In this document: one piece after another, positions 30,470 through 59,284 of the stretch | Layout: each line of letters opens with the position of its first letter | Numbering within the stretch: the stretch's first letter is position 1 | Assembly: GCF_902726645.1 (NCBI RefSeq) | Contig: NZ_CACVAO010000001.1 | Span: 3,854,636 to 3,918,635 of the forward strand | Direction: 5' to 3' | DNA length: 64,000 nt | Origin: Halobacillus ihumii | GTDB taxonomy: Bacteria; Bacillota; Bacilli; Bacillales; Halobacillaceae | Program-made: the position numbers and the translations under genes | The notes under the pieces: generated by a model | Told to the model about the DNA's origin: nothing | The model's database searches: none | The model's input: the letters and a program-made list of their open reading frames with translations, nothing else

Positions 30470-31621
30470 ATGTTAGAGTTTGATACGAGCATGGATTCGC
30501 TAGCAACAATTAAAGTGATTGGGGTCGGTGGCGGTGGAAGTAATGCCGTTAACCGAATGATCGAGCATGGAGTTCAAGGTGTAGAATTTATTGCTGTGAA
30601 CACAGATGCTCAGGCGTTGAATCTATCGAAAGCTGAAGTAAAAATGCAGATTGGCGGCAAACTGACGCGCGGACTTGGTGCTGGAGCGAATCCAGAAGTG
30701 GGTCGCAAAGCAGCTGAAGAAAGTAAAGAACAGTTAGAAGAAGCGTTGCAAGGAGCCGATATGGTCTTCGTTACAGCCGGAATGGGTGGAGGCACAGGTA
30801 CAGGTGCAGCTCCTGTTATTGCTCAAGTAGCTAAAGAACTTGGAGCTTTAACTGTCGGTGTTGTTACCCGTCCGTTTACGTTCGAAGGCCGCAAACGTTC
30901 AACTCAGGCAACAGGTGGAATTGAAGGCTTAAAAGGCAGTGTAGATACGTTAATTGTTATCCCGAATGACCGCCTGCTTGAGATCGTTGATAAAAATACA
31001 CCGATGCTTGAAGCTTTCCGTGAAGCCGACAACGTGCTTCGCCAGGGTGTTCAAGGTATTTCAGATTTGATCGCAGTACCTGGTTTAATTAACGTTGACT
31101 TTGCAGACGTCAAAACCATCATGGTTGATAAAGGTTCAGCATTGATGGGGATTGGTATTGCTACAGGAGAAAGCCGGGCGGCAGAAGCTGCCAAAAAAGC
31201 AATCTCCTCACCGTTGCTTGAAACGTCTATTGATGGAGCACACGGGGTTCTCATGAACATTAGTGGTGGAGCGAATTTAAGTCTTTATGAAGTCCAGGAG
31301 GCAGCTGATATTGTTACGTCGGCAGCAGATCAGGAAGTAAATGTTATCTTTGGTTCCGTTATCAACGAGAACTTGAAAGATGAGATCGTCGTAACTGTTA
31401 TCGCGACTGGATTTGATGAGGCTCAAATTGCAGAAGCTCAAAAGAGACCGCGCGGTAATATGATGAATCAATCGAAGCCGACACCTCAAGAGCGTGTACG
31501 TGAAGAACAGCCGCAATCACGTCGAGAGGCTTCTCATCAAGTGCCGCCTAAACAAGCTCCGCAAGAAGAAGATACACTTGATATTCCAACGTTTTTACGT
31601 AACCGTAATCGCCGTAGATAA
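30470..31621 (+). CDS. ftsZ: FtsZ, tubulin-like cell division GTPase
   Basis: 383-residue protein that forms the division ring. The GTP-binding tubulin signature GGGTGTG is at 106-112 and the T7 loop region is [11 protein letters not shown]. The Pro/Gln-rich linker is followed by the conserved C-terminal peptide [13 protein letters not shown], the docking site for FtsA, SepF and EzrA. AGGAGG lies 8 bases before ATG 30470. It is the last gene of the cluster, followed by a strong terminator. Confidence 0.98.
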
Positions 31622-31669: not shown

Positions 31670-32300
31670 ATGTGCAGAGATCTATTTTATAGCAGTTAAG
31701 TTTATATAAGTTTGGGTGCGTTCAGCGCAAGGAGTAATTAATCAATTCTGGCGGACATCACAGATTCGTATAGTTCTCAGAGAGTTTCACCCGTTATGAT
31801 ATGGCATAATAACCGCGTCACAGAGAGATTTTCATCTATCTCATAAGAAGTTATTTTATCGTGGGTATCTTGAACCTGGAGTGTTTCCGTTCTTCTTTAA
31901 ACACAAGGAGGTTCGGGAAATTGCGAGACTCCTGTGGGATGAACATGACAGGTGAGACCTCAGAGGACGGAGTCCGAGGAGGCTCAGCGGGTAAAGGAAG
32001 TTCGGGGAAAGGCAACGGAAATATATCTCGAGACTGGGTCTTCCAGATTGCTGCCCTTCACCTAATAAAAATGATTTCAAATATTTGACTAGACTTATAG
32101 GAGGTATTTCTTTATACATATTTAATCCCTTGGAGAACATGTGACTTAAATTATGAAATTGATTTAACTAACTACAATTTAGTCTACATAATAAAATTAC
32201 TATGTACTTAACCTTGCAGTTTTCCTCCATAATCATTTTTGAGATTCCCCAAAAATTACTAGACAGAAACTAACAAAACTAGCTTTGAATCAAATCAAAA
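31670..32300. other. Gene-free region between ftsZ and spoIIGA
   Basis: About 630 bp with no credible gene. In B. subtilis this interval holds the protease gene bpr. Here only the repeat copy at 31884-32021 stands out; the rest is AT-rich with no recognised element. Confidence 0.6.
31884..32021. repeat. Interspersed palindromic element, copy 2 (divergent)
   Basis: Contains GCGAGACTCCTGTGGGATG, AGGTGAGACCTC and GAGGAGGCTCAGCGG, a variant of the core of the element at 59071. It is enclosed by a different stem, TTTCCGTT (31884-31891) and AACGGAAA (32014-32021). The GGCTGGGA ends are not recognisable, so it is diverged or trimmed. Confidence 0.65.
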
Positions 32301-32301
32301 T

Positions 32302-32335
32302 GTGACAGACTTTTTACATAGACAGGCTTTATACT
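32302..32335 (+). promoter_or_regulatory. spoIIG promoter with 22-bp spacer
   Basis: GTGACA (32302-32307) and TATACT (32330-32335) are 22 bp apart. The B. subtilis spoIIG promoter is known for the same long spacing, made usable by phosphorylated Spo0A. I could not pick out convincing Spo0A boxes by eye. Confidence 0.7.
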
Positions 32336-32367
32336 AATTTATAAATCAATAGAGAGGAGAGGGGAGG

Positions 32368-33276
32368 ATTTACCTTGATGCTGTTTGGACATTGAATATT
32401 TTCATGGACGGGATGATTCTATACTTAACGCAAGGATTAACTCGGGCGAAAACGACTAATAAACGTTTAGCCGCAGCAGCTTTGTTTGCTTCCTGCATCG
32501 TTCCTATTACGGTGTATATGCCTCATATTTGGTTAACTTCAGCGTTAGGGAAGTTATTTTTTTCGCTTATCATTATCTATATGGCATTTTCTTTTAAGTC
32601 TATTCAATCATTTTTCATCCAATGGCTGACGTTCTATTTTGTAACGTTTGCGATTGGAGGTGCATTACTTGGGATTCACTTTTTTTTAAATAGTCGAATT
32701 GAATTTGATGGGAGCAGTATGATCACCTTTTCTTCTGGATATGGAGATCCTGTCAGCTGGGTACTTGTGTGTGTCGGCTTTCCGTTATCGTGGTTGTTTA
32801 CGAAATGGCGCATGGAACAAGTGCAAGCTCACAAAATGAAGACAGAGGATTTGTATAATGTCACGGTCAGCTTTGATGGAAAACAGGCAGATTGTACCGG
32901 GTTAGTGGATAGTGGAAACCAGCTGATTGATCCGATCAGCAAGAAAATGGTTTTCTTAGCTGACCTCCATGTGTGGAAGCAGCTTTTGCCCGAACAGGAT
33001 TTAGAGTACGTAAAGACAGACGAAGTATTGGAGCACTTAGAAGAATTGTCACCTGCAGTACAATCAGCGGTCCGTGTTGTACCGTATCAGGGAGCAGGGT
33101 CGCTTGGGCAGTTGATGGTTACGTTCTTTGTCGAGTCGATTACCATTCATACTGATGAAGGTCAATTAAAGGTAGATCAACCACTTCTGGGCGTTCAGCA
33201 TCATGACTTAACACATGACCAAATGTACCAGATTTTAATTCATCCTCATGCTTCATTAAAGGGAATTACGGCTTAG
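32368..33276 (+). CDS. spoIIGA: SpoIIGA, membrane aspartic protease for pro-sigma-E
   Basis: 302-residue protein with about five N-terminal membrane segments and a cytoplasmic aspartic-protease-like domain with the DSG motif ([12 protein letters not shown]). It processes pro-sigma-E in the mother cell. The reading frame before the first usual start codon (TTG 32392, ATG 32404) encodes [14 protein letters not shown], which matches the conserved N-terminus of SpoIIGA (IYLD..W.LN). The in-frame stop TAG at 32350-32352 leaves no ATG, GTG or TTG before this block. ATT 32368 lies 8 bases after GAGGAG, so an AUU start is proposed. If this is wrong, translation begins at TTG 32392. Confidence 0.85.
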
Positions 33277-33292: not shown

Positions 33293-34009
33293 ATGAAGTG
33301 GAAATTTAAACTTAAATTATGGATTTATAAGTTATTAATAAAACTCGGTATTAAGCAAAGTGAAATCTACTACATTGGCGGGAGTGAGGCATTGCCTCCG
33401 CCTTTATCTCGAGAGGAAGAGCGGGAATTATTAGAACGGCTGCCTAAAGGAGATAAGGCAGCGCGGGCTATGCTGATTGAACGTAACCTGCGTCTCGTTG
33501 TCTATATTGCTCGGAAATTTGAGAACACGGGGCTGAACATCGAAGATTTAATTAGTATCGGTACGATCGGACTCATTAAAGCTGTGAATACGTTTGATCC
33601 GGAGAAGAAGATTAAACTGGCAACGTACGCATCAAGATGTATTGAAAATGAAATTCTCATGCACTTGCGTAAAAGCAACAAGCTAAAGACCGAGGTTTCT
33701 TTTGATGAACCATTGAATGTGGATTGGGACGGAAATGAATTACTCTTGTCTGACATCCTTGGCACGGATGAAGATTTAATTACAAGAGGCATTGAGAAAA
33801 AGATTGATAAAACATTACTTAAATCAGCTCTCAAACAATTAAATGATCGTGAGAAAGAGATTATGGAATTGCGGTTTGGATTGATTGGAAAAAAAGAAAA
33901 AACTCAAAAAGATGTTGCAGATATGATGGGCATCTCTCAATCCTATATATCAAGGCTTGAGAAGAAAATCATCCGCCGCTTGCAACGTGAATTTGATAAA
34001 ATGGTATAG
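33293..34009 (+). CDS. sigE: Pro-sigma-E, mother-cell sporulation sigma factor
   Basis: 238-residue sigma-70 family factor, first of the mother-cell line. The basic, membrane-binding pro-sequence ([19 protein letters not shown], about 28 residues) is followed by the conserved [14 protein letters not shown] junction where SpoIIGA cuts. Region 2 ([37 protein letters not shown]) and region 4 ([20 protein letters not shown]) are intact. It starts 16 bases after spoIIGA. Confidence 0.98.
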
Positions 34010-34092: not shown

Positions 34093-34872
34093 TTGACACG
34101 TCATAAAGTAGAAATATGTGGTGTAGATACATCAAAGCTTCCTGTACTTAAAAATAAAGAAATGCGGGCCCTATTTAAACGAATGCAAAGTGGAGATGAC
34201 AGTGCTCGGGAAGAGCTTGTCAATGGAAACTTACGCCTAGTTTTATCAGTCATTCAGAGGTTTAACAATCGCGGCGAATACGGGGATGATTTGTTCCAGG
34301 TTGGCTGTATTGGATTGATGAAATCGATTGATAACTTTGATCTCAGTCACAATGTGAAATTTTCCACCTATGCCGTTCCGATGATCATTGGGGAAATTCG
34401 CCGTTACTTGCGGGATAATAACCCCATTCGCGTTTCCCGTTCACTTCGGGATACAGCCTACAAAGCGCTGCAGATGCGTGAGAAAATGATAGGTGAAACA
34501 TCGAAGGATCCAGCCCCTCATGAAATCGCTGATAAAATGGGTGTGCCCCATGAGGATGTTGTCTTTGCGATGGATGCGATCCAAGATCCTGTTTCCTTGT
34601 TTGAACCGATTTATAATGATGGCGGAGACCCGATTTTTGTTGTCGATCAATTAAAGGATGATCGTGAAAAAGATTCTAACTGGGTGGACGAGTTATCTTT
34701 AAGGGAAGGTATGAAAAAGCTGAATGACCGCGAAAAGATGATTCTAACGAAACGATTTTTTCAAGGGAAAACTCAAATGGAAGTTGCTGATGAAATCGGT
34801 ATTTCACAAGCACAAGTTTCAAGGCTGGAGAAAGCGGCCATAAAGGAAATGAATTCATCTATGTTTCAATAG
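34093..34872 (+). CDS. sigG: Sigma-G, late forespore sigma factor
   Basis: 259-residue sigma factor for late forespore genes. The N-terminal block RHKVEICGVDTSKLPVLKN is diagnostic for sigma-G. Region 2 (NLRLVLSVIQRFNNRGEY.DDLFQVGCIGLMKSIDNF) and region 4 (MEVADEIGISQAQVSRLEKAAI) are complete. It starts at TTG 34093, 8 bases after GGGAGG. A weak start codon and a masked ribosome site both point to tight translational control. It ends at a terminator. Confidence 0.97.
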   Translation: MTRHKVEICGVDTSKLPVLKNKEMRALFKRMQSGDDSAREELVNGNLRLVLSVIQRFNNRGEYGDDLFQVGCIGLMKSIDNFDLSHNVKFSTYAVPMIIGEIRRYLRDNNPIRVSRSLRDTAYKALQMREKMIGETSKDPAPHEIADKMGVPHEDVVFAMDAIQDPVSLFEPIYNDGGDPIFVVDQLKDDREKDSNWVDELSLREGMKKLNDREKMILTKRFFQGKTQMEVADEIGISQAQVSRLEKAAIKEMNSSMFQ

Positions 34873-59070: not shown

Positions 59071-59284
59071 TAGGCTGGGACATAAGTAAACCTCTAAAGT
59101 GAAAAGACGAACGAAGTGCTGTTTAAGCGGAGAAAATATACGGAGACTCCTGCGGGAGGAAAGGCCTAGGTGAGACCTCGCAGTGCGCCAGCACAGGAAG
59201 GCTCAACAGCCGCCCGCGGAAAGCGCAGTATATTTTCGTAGCGGGATATACAACAATCATAGAAAATACTTTTATCCCAGCCCC
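59071..59284. repeat. Interspersed palindromic element, copy 3 (complete)
   Basis: Terminal inverted repeat GGCTGGGACATAAGTA (59073-59088) and TACTTTTATCCCAGCC (59267-59282). Inside, arms GAAAATATAC (59132-59141) and GTATATTTTC (59228-59237) enclose a core GGAGACTCCTGCGGGAGG ... GCCCGCGGAAAGCG. About 214 bp, no gene. It ends 8 bp from the rqcH stop codon. Confidence 0.85.

Follow-up and report, generated by a model that had tools for sequence, protein, structure and literature searches.

A very probable AUU start codon for the sporulation gene spoIIGA in Halobacillus ihumii

The sporulation gene spoIIGA of Halobacillus ihumii very probably starts at an AUU codon, judging by its sequence and that of its relatives. 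The gene lies in a 64,000-nucleotide stretch of DNA (the window), and the features of its start region are collected in Table 1. An earlier note on this DNA had placed the start at ATT 32368, and that assignment is backed by relatives, the Shine-Dalgarno register, the promoter position and codon-level constraint. The sequence evidence lies in the codon itself and its conservation, the register of the Shine-Dalgarno, the constraint on the coding sequence and the lack of alternative starts. The preferred explanation, considered probable, is that spoIIGA is translated from this AUU and that selection has favoured weak initiation, which would hold SpoIIGA at a low level relative to pro-sigma-E.

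Table 1. Features of the spoIIGA region, in window coordinates
Feature	Position	Strand	Remarks
ftsZ	ORF at 30470		Precedes spoIIGA; identity from sequence and position
Predicted -35 of spoIIG promoter, GTGACA	32302..32307	+	Within conserved NTGACAGACTTTT box; from sequence and conservation, putative promoter role
Predicted -10, TATACT	32330..32335	+	22 bp from -35; from sequence
Extended Shine-Dalgarno stretch, UAGAGAGGAGAGGGG	32350..32364	+	Duplex -14.7 kcal/mol; spacing 7 to ATT
In-frame stop, TAG	32350..32352	+	Rules out a start further upstream
ATT, inferred spoIIGA start codon	32368..32370	+	From sequence, relatives and Shine-Dalgarno
spoIIGA coding sequence	32368..33276	+	302 codons and stop; intact frame
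TTG codon 8, rejected start	32392..32394	+	Shine-Dalgarno -0.9 kcal/mol; TTG there in 3/32 orthologues
Internal ATG codon 12, rejected start	32404..32406	+	Shine-Dalgarno -3.6 kcal/mol here, median -2.7 in 31 relatives
sigE (pro-sigma-E)	33293..34009	+	ATG start; next gene after spoIIGA; identity from sequence and position
sigG	34093..34872	+	TTG start in ORF listing; identity from sequence and position

The product is identified as SpoIIGA by two profiles: Pfam PF03419 is matched over positions 2-283 of 284 (E 2.6e-75), and the NCBIfam equivalog TIGR02854 is matched with 227.7 bits against a cut-off of 209.55. The DSG motif (D181 S182 G183) is invariant across 10 aligned SpoIIGA sequences; its Asp is presumably catalytic, SpoIIGA being taken here as an Asp protease. 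The closest named record is from Halobacillus hunanensis (98% identity). The gene occupies a position 3' of ftsZ and 5' of sigE and sigG.

In the window, positions 32350-32370 read TAG, then AGA, GGA, GAG, GGG and AGG, then ATT, at which the peptide IYLDAVW begins. No canonical start codon (ATG, GTG or TTG) lies between TAG and ATT. The earlier note had given this list of remaining codons correctly, and also the GAGGAG (32354-32359) that ends 8 nt ahead of ATT. RNA structure around the start gives no signal, the fold of 32342-32420 being no better than those of shuffled sequences (z -0.05). A possible coupling role for an out-of-frame ATG at 32378, which opens a five-codon mini-ORF overlapping TTG 32392, was rejected, because this ATG is a product of GAT GCN (Asp-Ala) and is missing from the three loci (of 32) whose codon 3 is GAC.

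The start region is conserved well beyond the window. Among 150 genomes searched, spoIIGA was found in 144, and its start region was read in all 144. With the window's ATT counted as codon 0, no ATG, GTG or TTG occurs at codons -2, -1 or 0 in the window, in 11/11 loci of genus g1 or in 20/20 loci of genus g4. The 22 named Halobacillus records (L145-L166) also lack a canonical codon there, many of them being the same assemblies as in the g1/g4 set. Common to 31/31 relatives of two genera, the missing canonical codon is beyond chance. ATG stands at codon -1 in g2 and g3 (Thalassobacillus by named records) and in g5, represented by locus L027 (assigned to H. salinarum through its protein, P0019). 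Two g4 genomes (G039 and G044), among the 44 family genomes searched, have no spoIIGA match.

The same comparison bears on the quality of the sequence. That the missing codon results from faulty sequencing or assembly, or that the gene is a pseudogene, is practically negligible in probability: nothing was found in favour of either, the start state recurs in 31/31 relatives, and each of these has one match, with no stop within it. A base-call error (ATG misread as ATT), which the earlier note had named as a possible refutation, is contradicted by the relatives and is excluded because all 31 of them and the 22 named records share the missing canonical codon.

Aligning the N-termini and start codons of relatives, a check proposed at the outset, returns ATT, ATC or ATA in the start register. 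Across the 32 loci, codon 0 is ATT in 20, ATC in 6, ATA in 4 and TTA in 2, and codon -1 is ATC, ATT or ATA in 12. Where codon 0 is TTA (two loci), ATT at codon -1 sits in the start register. Start assignment by Shine-Dalgarno spacing gives AUU in 18 loci, AUC in 13 and AUA in one. In 30 of the 31 relatives, anti-Shine-Dalgarno duplexes put the Shine-Dalgarno 5-9 nt ahead of an AUH codon (AUU, AUC or AUA); the exception is L006, at 3 nt. The median Shine-Dalgarno duplex is also strong, at -13.6 kcal/mol in the 31 relatives. Orthologues with canonical starts have weaker medians, -11.6 (101 from other families) and -9.7 (7 from within the family). Ile at codon 0 is common in canonical-start orthologues, and the presence of ATH at this codon is therefore partly a matter of ancestry.

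Coding constraint separates the AUU from starts further inside the gene. An internal canonical start, at TTG codon 8 or at ATG codon 12, would shorten SpoIIGA and might be suggested by the fact that codon 12 is ATG in 32/32 loci and that database entries P0007 and P0008 begin there. Against it, most of the variation in codons 1-11 is silent in the spoIIGA frame: pN/pS is 0.13 there, the same as in codons 12-23, versus 0.87 at codons -10 to -3. IYLDAVW is therefore very probably translated, and ATG codon 12 is not the start. The Shine-Dalgarno before codon 12 is weak among the relatives (Table 1), and an internal start, as read from the sequence, would cut the first hydrophobic segment. Relatives that start at the equivalent of TTG 32392 had been named as a further refutation of the AUU, but only 3/32 loci have TTG at that codon. 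An internal start is thus very unlikely.

Upstream of the gene, a predicted spoIIG promoter would limit how far the message can extend. The NTGACAGACTTTT box is found 21-22 bp before TATACT or TATAAT in most of the 39 family loci listed. Mismatches to the promoter pair number 3 in L010, L026 and L028, 5 in L027 and 1-3 in the other family loci. The spoIIG promoter of B. subtilis has a 22-bp spacing and is under Spo0A control. Leader lengths follow from a simple hexamer score, by which the window's pick on a tie is TATAAA (leader 15); TATACT with its 22-bp spacing gives about 25 nt. L027, the sole sampled ATG-start locus with a Halobacillus name, is also without the conserved promoter box.

A start at a far-upstream in-frame codon corresponds to the long forms found in databases (MTDF...GRAYTF...), as which P0006, P0011, P0014, P0015 and P0016 are entered; canonical codons in frame do precede the predicted start of transcription in 8/32 loci. 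The DNA for P0014 (L160, like L019 and L024) contradicts this reading, since the long-form stretch is the conserved GTGACA...TATACT box itself and would therefore lie before the predicted transcript start. The long forms thus treat the promoter box as coding sequence, as the DNA shows for P0014 and the shared peptide for P0006, P0011, P0015 and P0016. The low coding constraint at codons -10 to -3 also stands against it, as does the fact that the window and 17 other loci (18/32) run back to the upstream stop without an in-frame ATG, GTG or TTG. A far-upstream start is highly improbable.

Within the predicted mRNA, 25/32 loci have no in-frame canonical codon. The other seven (L008, L009, L015, L016, L022, L023 and L029) carry ATG, GTG or TTG at codon -3, -6 or -7, so a start there is possible in those species. 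The Shine-Dalgarno duplexes before these candidates are -2.9 to +2.9 kcal/mol, and in L008 and L009 the candidate GTG falls within the Shine-Dalgarno itself.

Annotated N-termini are correspondingly inconsistent. Among the best 25 database matches (P0001-P0025, for which every organism name given is Halobacillus), five (P0001, P0002, P0009, P0018 and P0022) have the AUH codon read as M at the N-terminus; ATT or ATC is therefore already used by automatic annotation in some species. The remaining N-termini are scattered over many positions, including the promoter box and the inside of the first hydrophobic segment. An AUH start would explain why annotated SpoIIGA N-termini in Halobacillus fall at so many different positions.

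In most other families the usual form is TTG, GTG or ATG, one further codon, and then IYLD. Outside the window's family, the spoIIGA starts of 206 genomes are TTG in 122, GTG in 50, ATG in 27, CTG in 6 and none in one, in an uneven sample that leaves out L290-L292 and in which 105 genomes come from a first, more even search and 80 are the best-ranked by likeness to a Neobacillus protein. ATG starts number 26/105 in the more even sample and 0/80 in the Neobacillus-like best 80. The sigE start is ATG in 73 of the 103 loci placed outside the family by a heuristic scan (2/105 unplaced); the difference in ATG use between sigE and spoIIGA gives a Fisher p of 3e-11 over rows that are not independent. 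On these counts, spoIIGA usually has a weak start, of which AUH is the most extreme form.

CTG at codon -2 is found in 4/4 genomes of the Bacillus carboniphilus family, in four named records (two of them Neobacillus) and in 2/80 further genomes, all scored on the codons near the motif. In genus g62 of family f35, 4/4 loci are without a canonical codon near the motif, and two of them have an in-frame ATG further up. Locus L143, of genus g6, has no canonical codon near the motif either. ATT, GTT or GTA occupies the start register in L289-L292 (f35, g62) and L143, which are possibly further independent non-canonical starts. In g6, three of the four genomes (G016, G019 and G022; 2.6-2.9 Mb) are without a spoIIGA match, which may reflect loss of sporulation.

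On a 154-row tree, three changes are required to account for the AUH, CTG and canonical starts, leaving aside three rows scored as 'none'. Within the family, AUH and canonical starts are one change apart, or two if H. rhizosphaerae (P0006) is counted, its state being taken from the protein only (Arg before IYLD). The family tree was built quickly, has some long branches marked as such and leaves out L137 as short; on it, at least four changes among AUU, AUC and AUA are needed. Given the single AUH/canonical change, the 32 loci are not independent cases, and L027 may have kept or regained its ATG.

These counts bear on whether the codon matters. If AUU is the start but merely persists neutrally, the strong Shine-Dalgarno would make the weakness of the codon irrelevant. 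The single change on the family tree (two with P0006) is in keeping with this, and the stronger Shine-Dalgarno could be simple compensation. However, ATG is one base away, and despite the repeated changes among ATT, ATC and ATA it appears in one sampled lineage, where it is perhaps ancestral; CTG is used at codon -2 in other lineages, and ATG is infrequent outside the family even in the more even sample. Neutral persistence is accordingly regarded as rather unlikely. A weak AUU that limits expression is plausible in view of its conservation and of how seldom spoIIGA uses ATG elsewhere in the order.

Under the preferred explanation, selection for weak initiation, the AUU at 32368 would presumably be decoded as fMet by the usual initiator tRNA, and the strong purine-rich Shine-Dalgarno in the predicted leader of about 25 nt would place it. 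The shift from a canonical to an AUH start would have occurred near the base of the genus, with interchange of AUU, AUC and AUA since. Selection for a low, fixed initiation rate would provide little membrane protease relative to its substrate pro-sigma-E, which is encoded next on the same mRNA with an ATG start. We infer initiation at AUU in the cell, a low yield and a regulatory purpose. The choice of start codon may thus help to set how much SpoIIGA is made per pro-sigma-E. A single-base change of ATT to ATG could show whether sporulation timing depends on weak initiation.

A more elaborate proposal is that spoIIGA forms an IF3-gated developmental checkpoint, in which one discriminated start codon would be common to the sigma-E switch and the synthesis of IF3 (infC also has AUU). 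SpoIIGA would then rise when IF3 falls or the ribosome state changes at the onset of sporulation, and the recurrence of AUH and CUG at the spoIIGA start in separate lineages would represent convergent selection for the gate. The AUU context of infC was read in 30/30 loci from relatives, 12 of them from clade genomes: GGAGGTGG... is followed by ATT, then by AGC or AGT and AAR in 29 loci and by AAT AAA in one. An IF3-sensitive codon is therefore probably in use in this clade. As a whole the checkpoint is improbable, and IF3 control of spoIIGA is speculative.

The proposed weak initiation has counterparts in known systems. The infC gene, which starts at AUU or AUA, is autoregulated in E. coli. 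Like spoIIGA, infC combines AUU with a strong Shine-Dalgarno; unlike it, infC encodes IF3 itself and not a sporulation protease. In E. coli pcnB, a chromosomal AUU start limits expression; pcnB and spoIIGA share a chromosomal AUU and differ in gene, phylum and role. The earlier note had called AUU starts very rare, with infC and pcnB as the known cases. Those examples stand, but the list is incomplete: the available part of one report also describes conserved AUU (cvfC1) and AUA (ccpN) starts in S. aureus, the latter also in B. subtilis (PMC13009471). In the S. aureus reporters described there, AUH-type starts yield about 10% of AUG, and ccpN up to 30% in rich medium (PMC13009471). Both genes resemble spoIIGA in having a conserved AUH start with an extended Shine-Dalgarno, and their yield is lower than with AUG (PMC13009471). 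Their products are of other kinds, CcpN being a metabolic repressor and the cvfC1 product a small protein, and their starts are mapped and reporter-tested, whereas that of spoIIGA is read from sequence.

The neighbouring gene sigG, also a sporulation regulator, is likewise weakly translated: according to the accessible part of a study of B. subtilis, it is poorly translated, 11/15 Bacilli sigG genes have a non-ATG start, and ATG raised the yield only about 1.3-fold (PMC5942855). It differs from spoIIGA in using GTG or TTG and a hairpin at the ribosome binding site, with no AUH (PMC5942855). The TTG start of sigG at 34093 in the window agrees with these non-ATG starts (PMC5942855).

By its sequence features, spoIIGA would join the small known class of genes with conserved AUU-type starts (infC, pcnB, ccpN and cvfC1), in which it is unusual as a developmental protease with a near genus-wide occurrence of the start. 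If true, the assignment brings a developmental regulator into this small group of bacterial genes. Among literature titles and abstract openings, a scope mostly outside subscription papers, no description of an AUH start for spoIIGA was found, and the available part of PMC11339384 has nothing on the spoIIGA start.

The gap between ftsZ and spoIIGA contains a repeat-like element at 31841-32090 (GCGAGACTCCTG...CCGAGGAGGCTC). It has matches of 28-282 bp, in both orientations, near spoIIGA or infC in Halobacillus, Thalassobacillus and Pontibacillus loci, and a short match also lies at 59143-59179 of the window.
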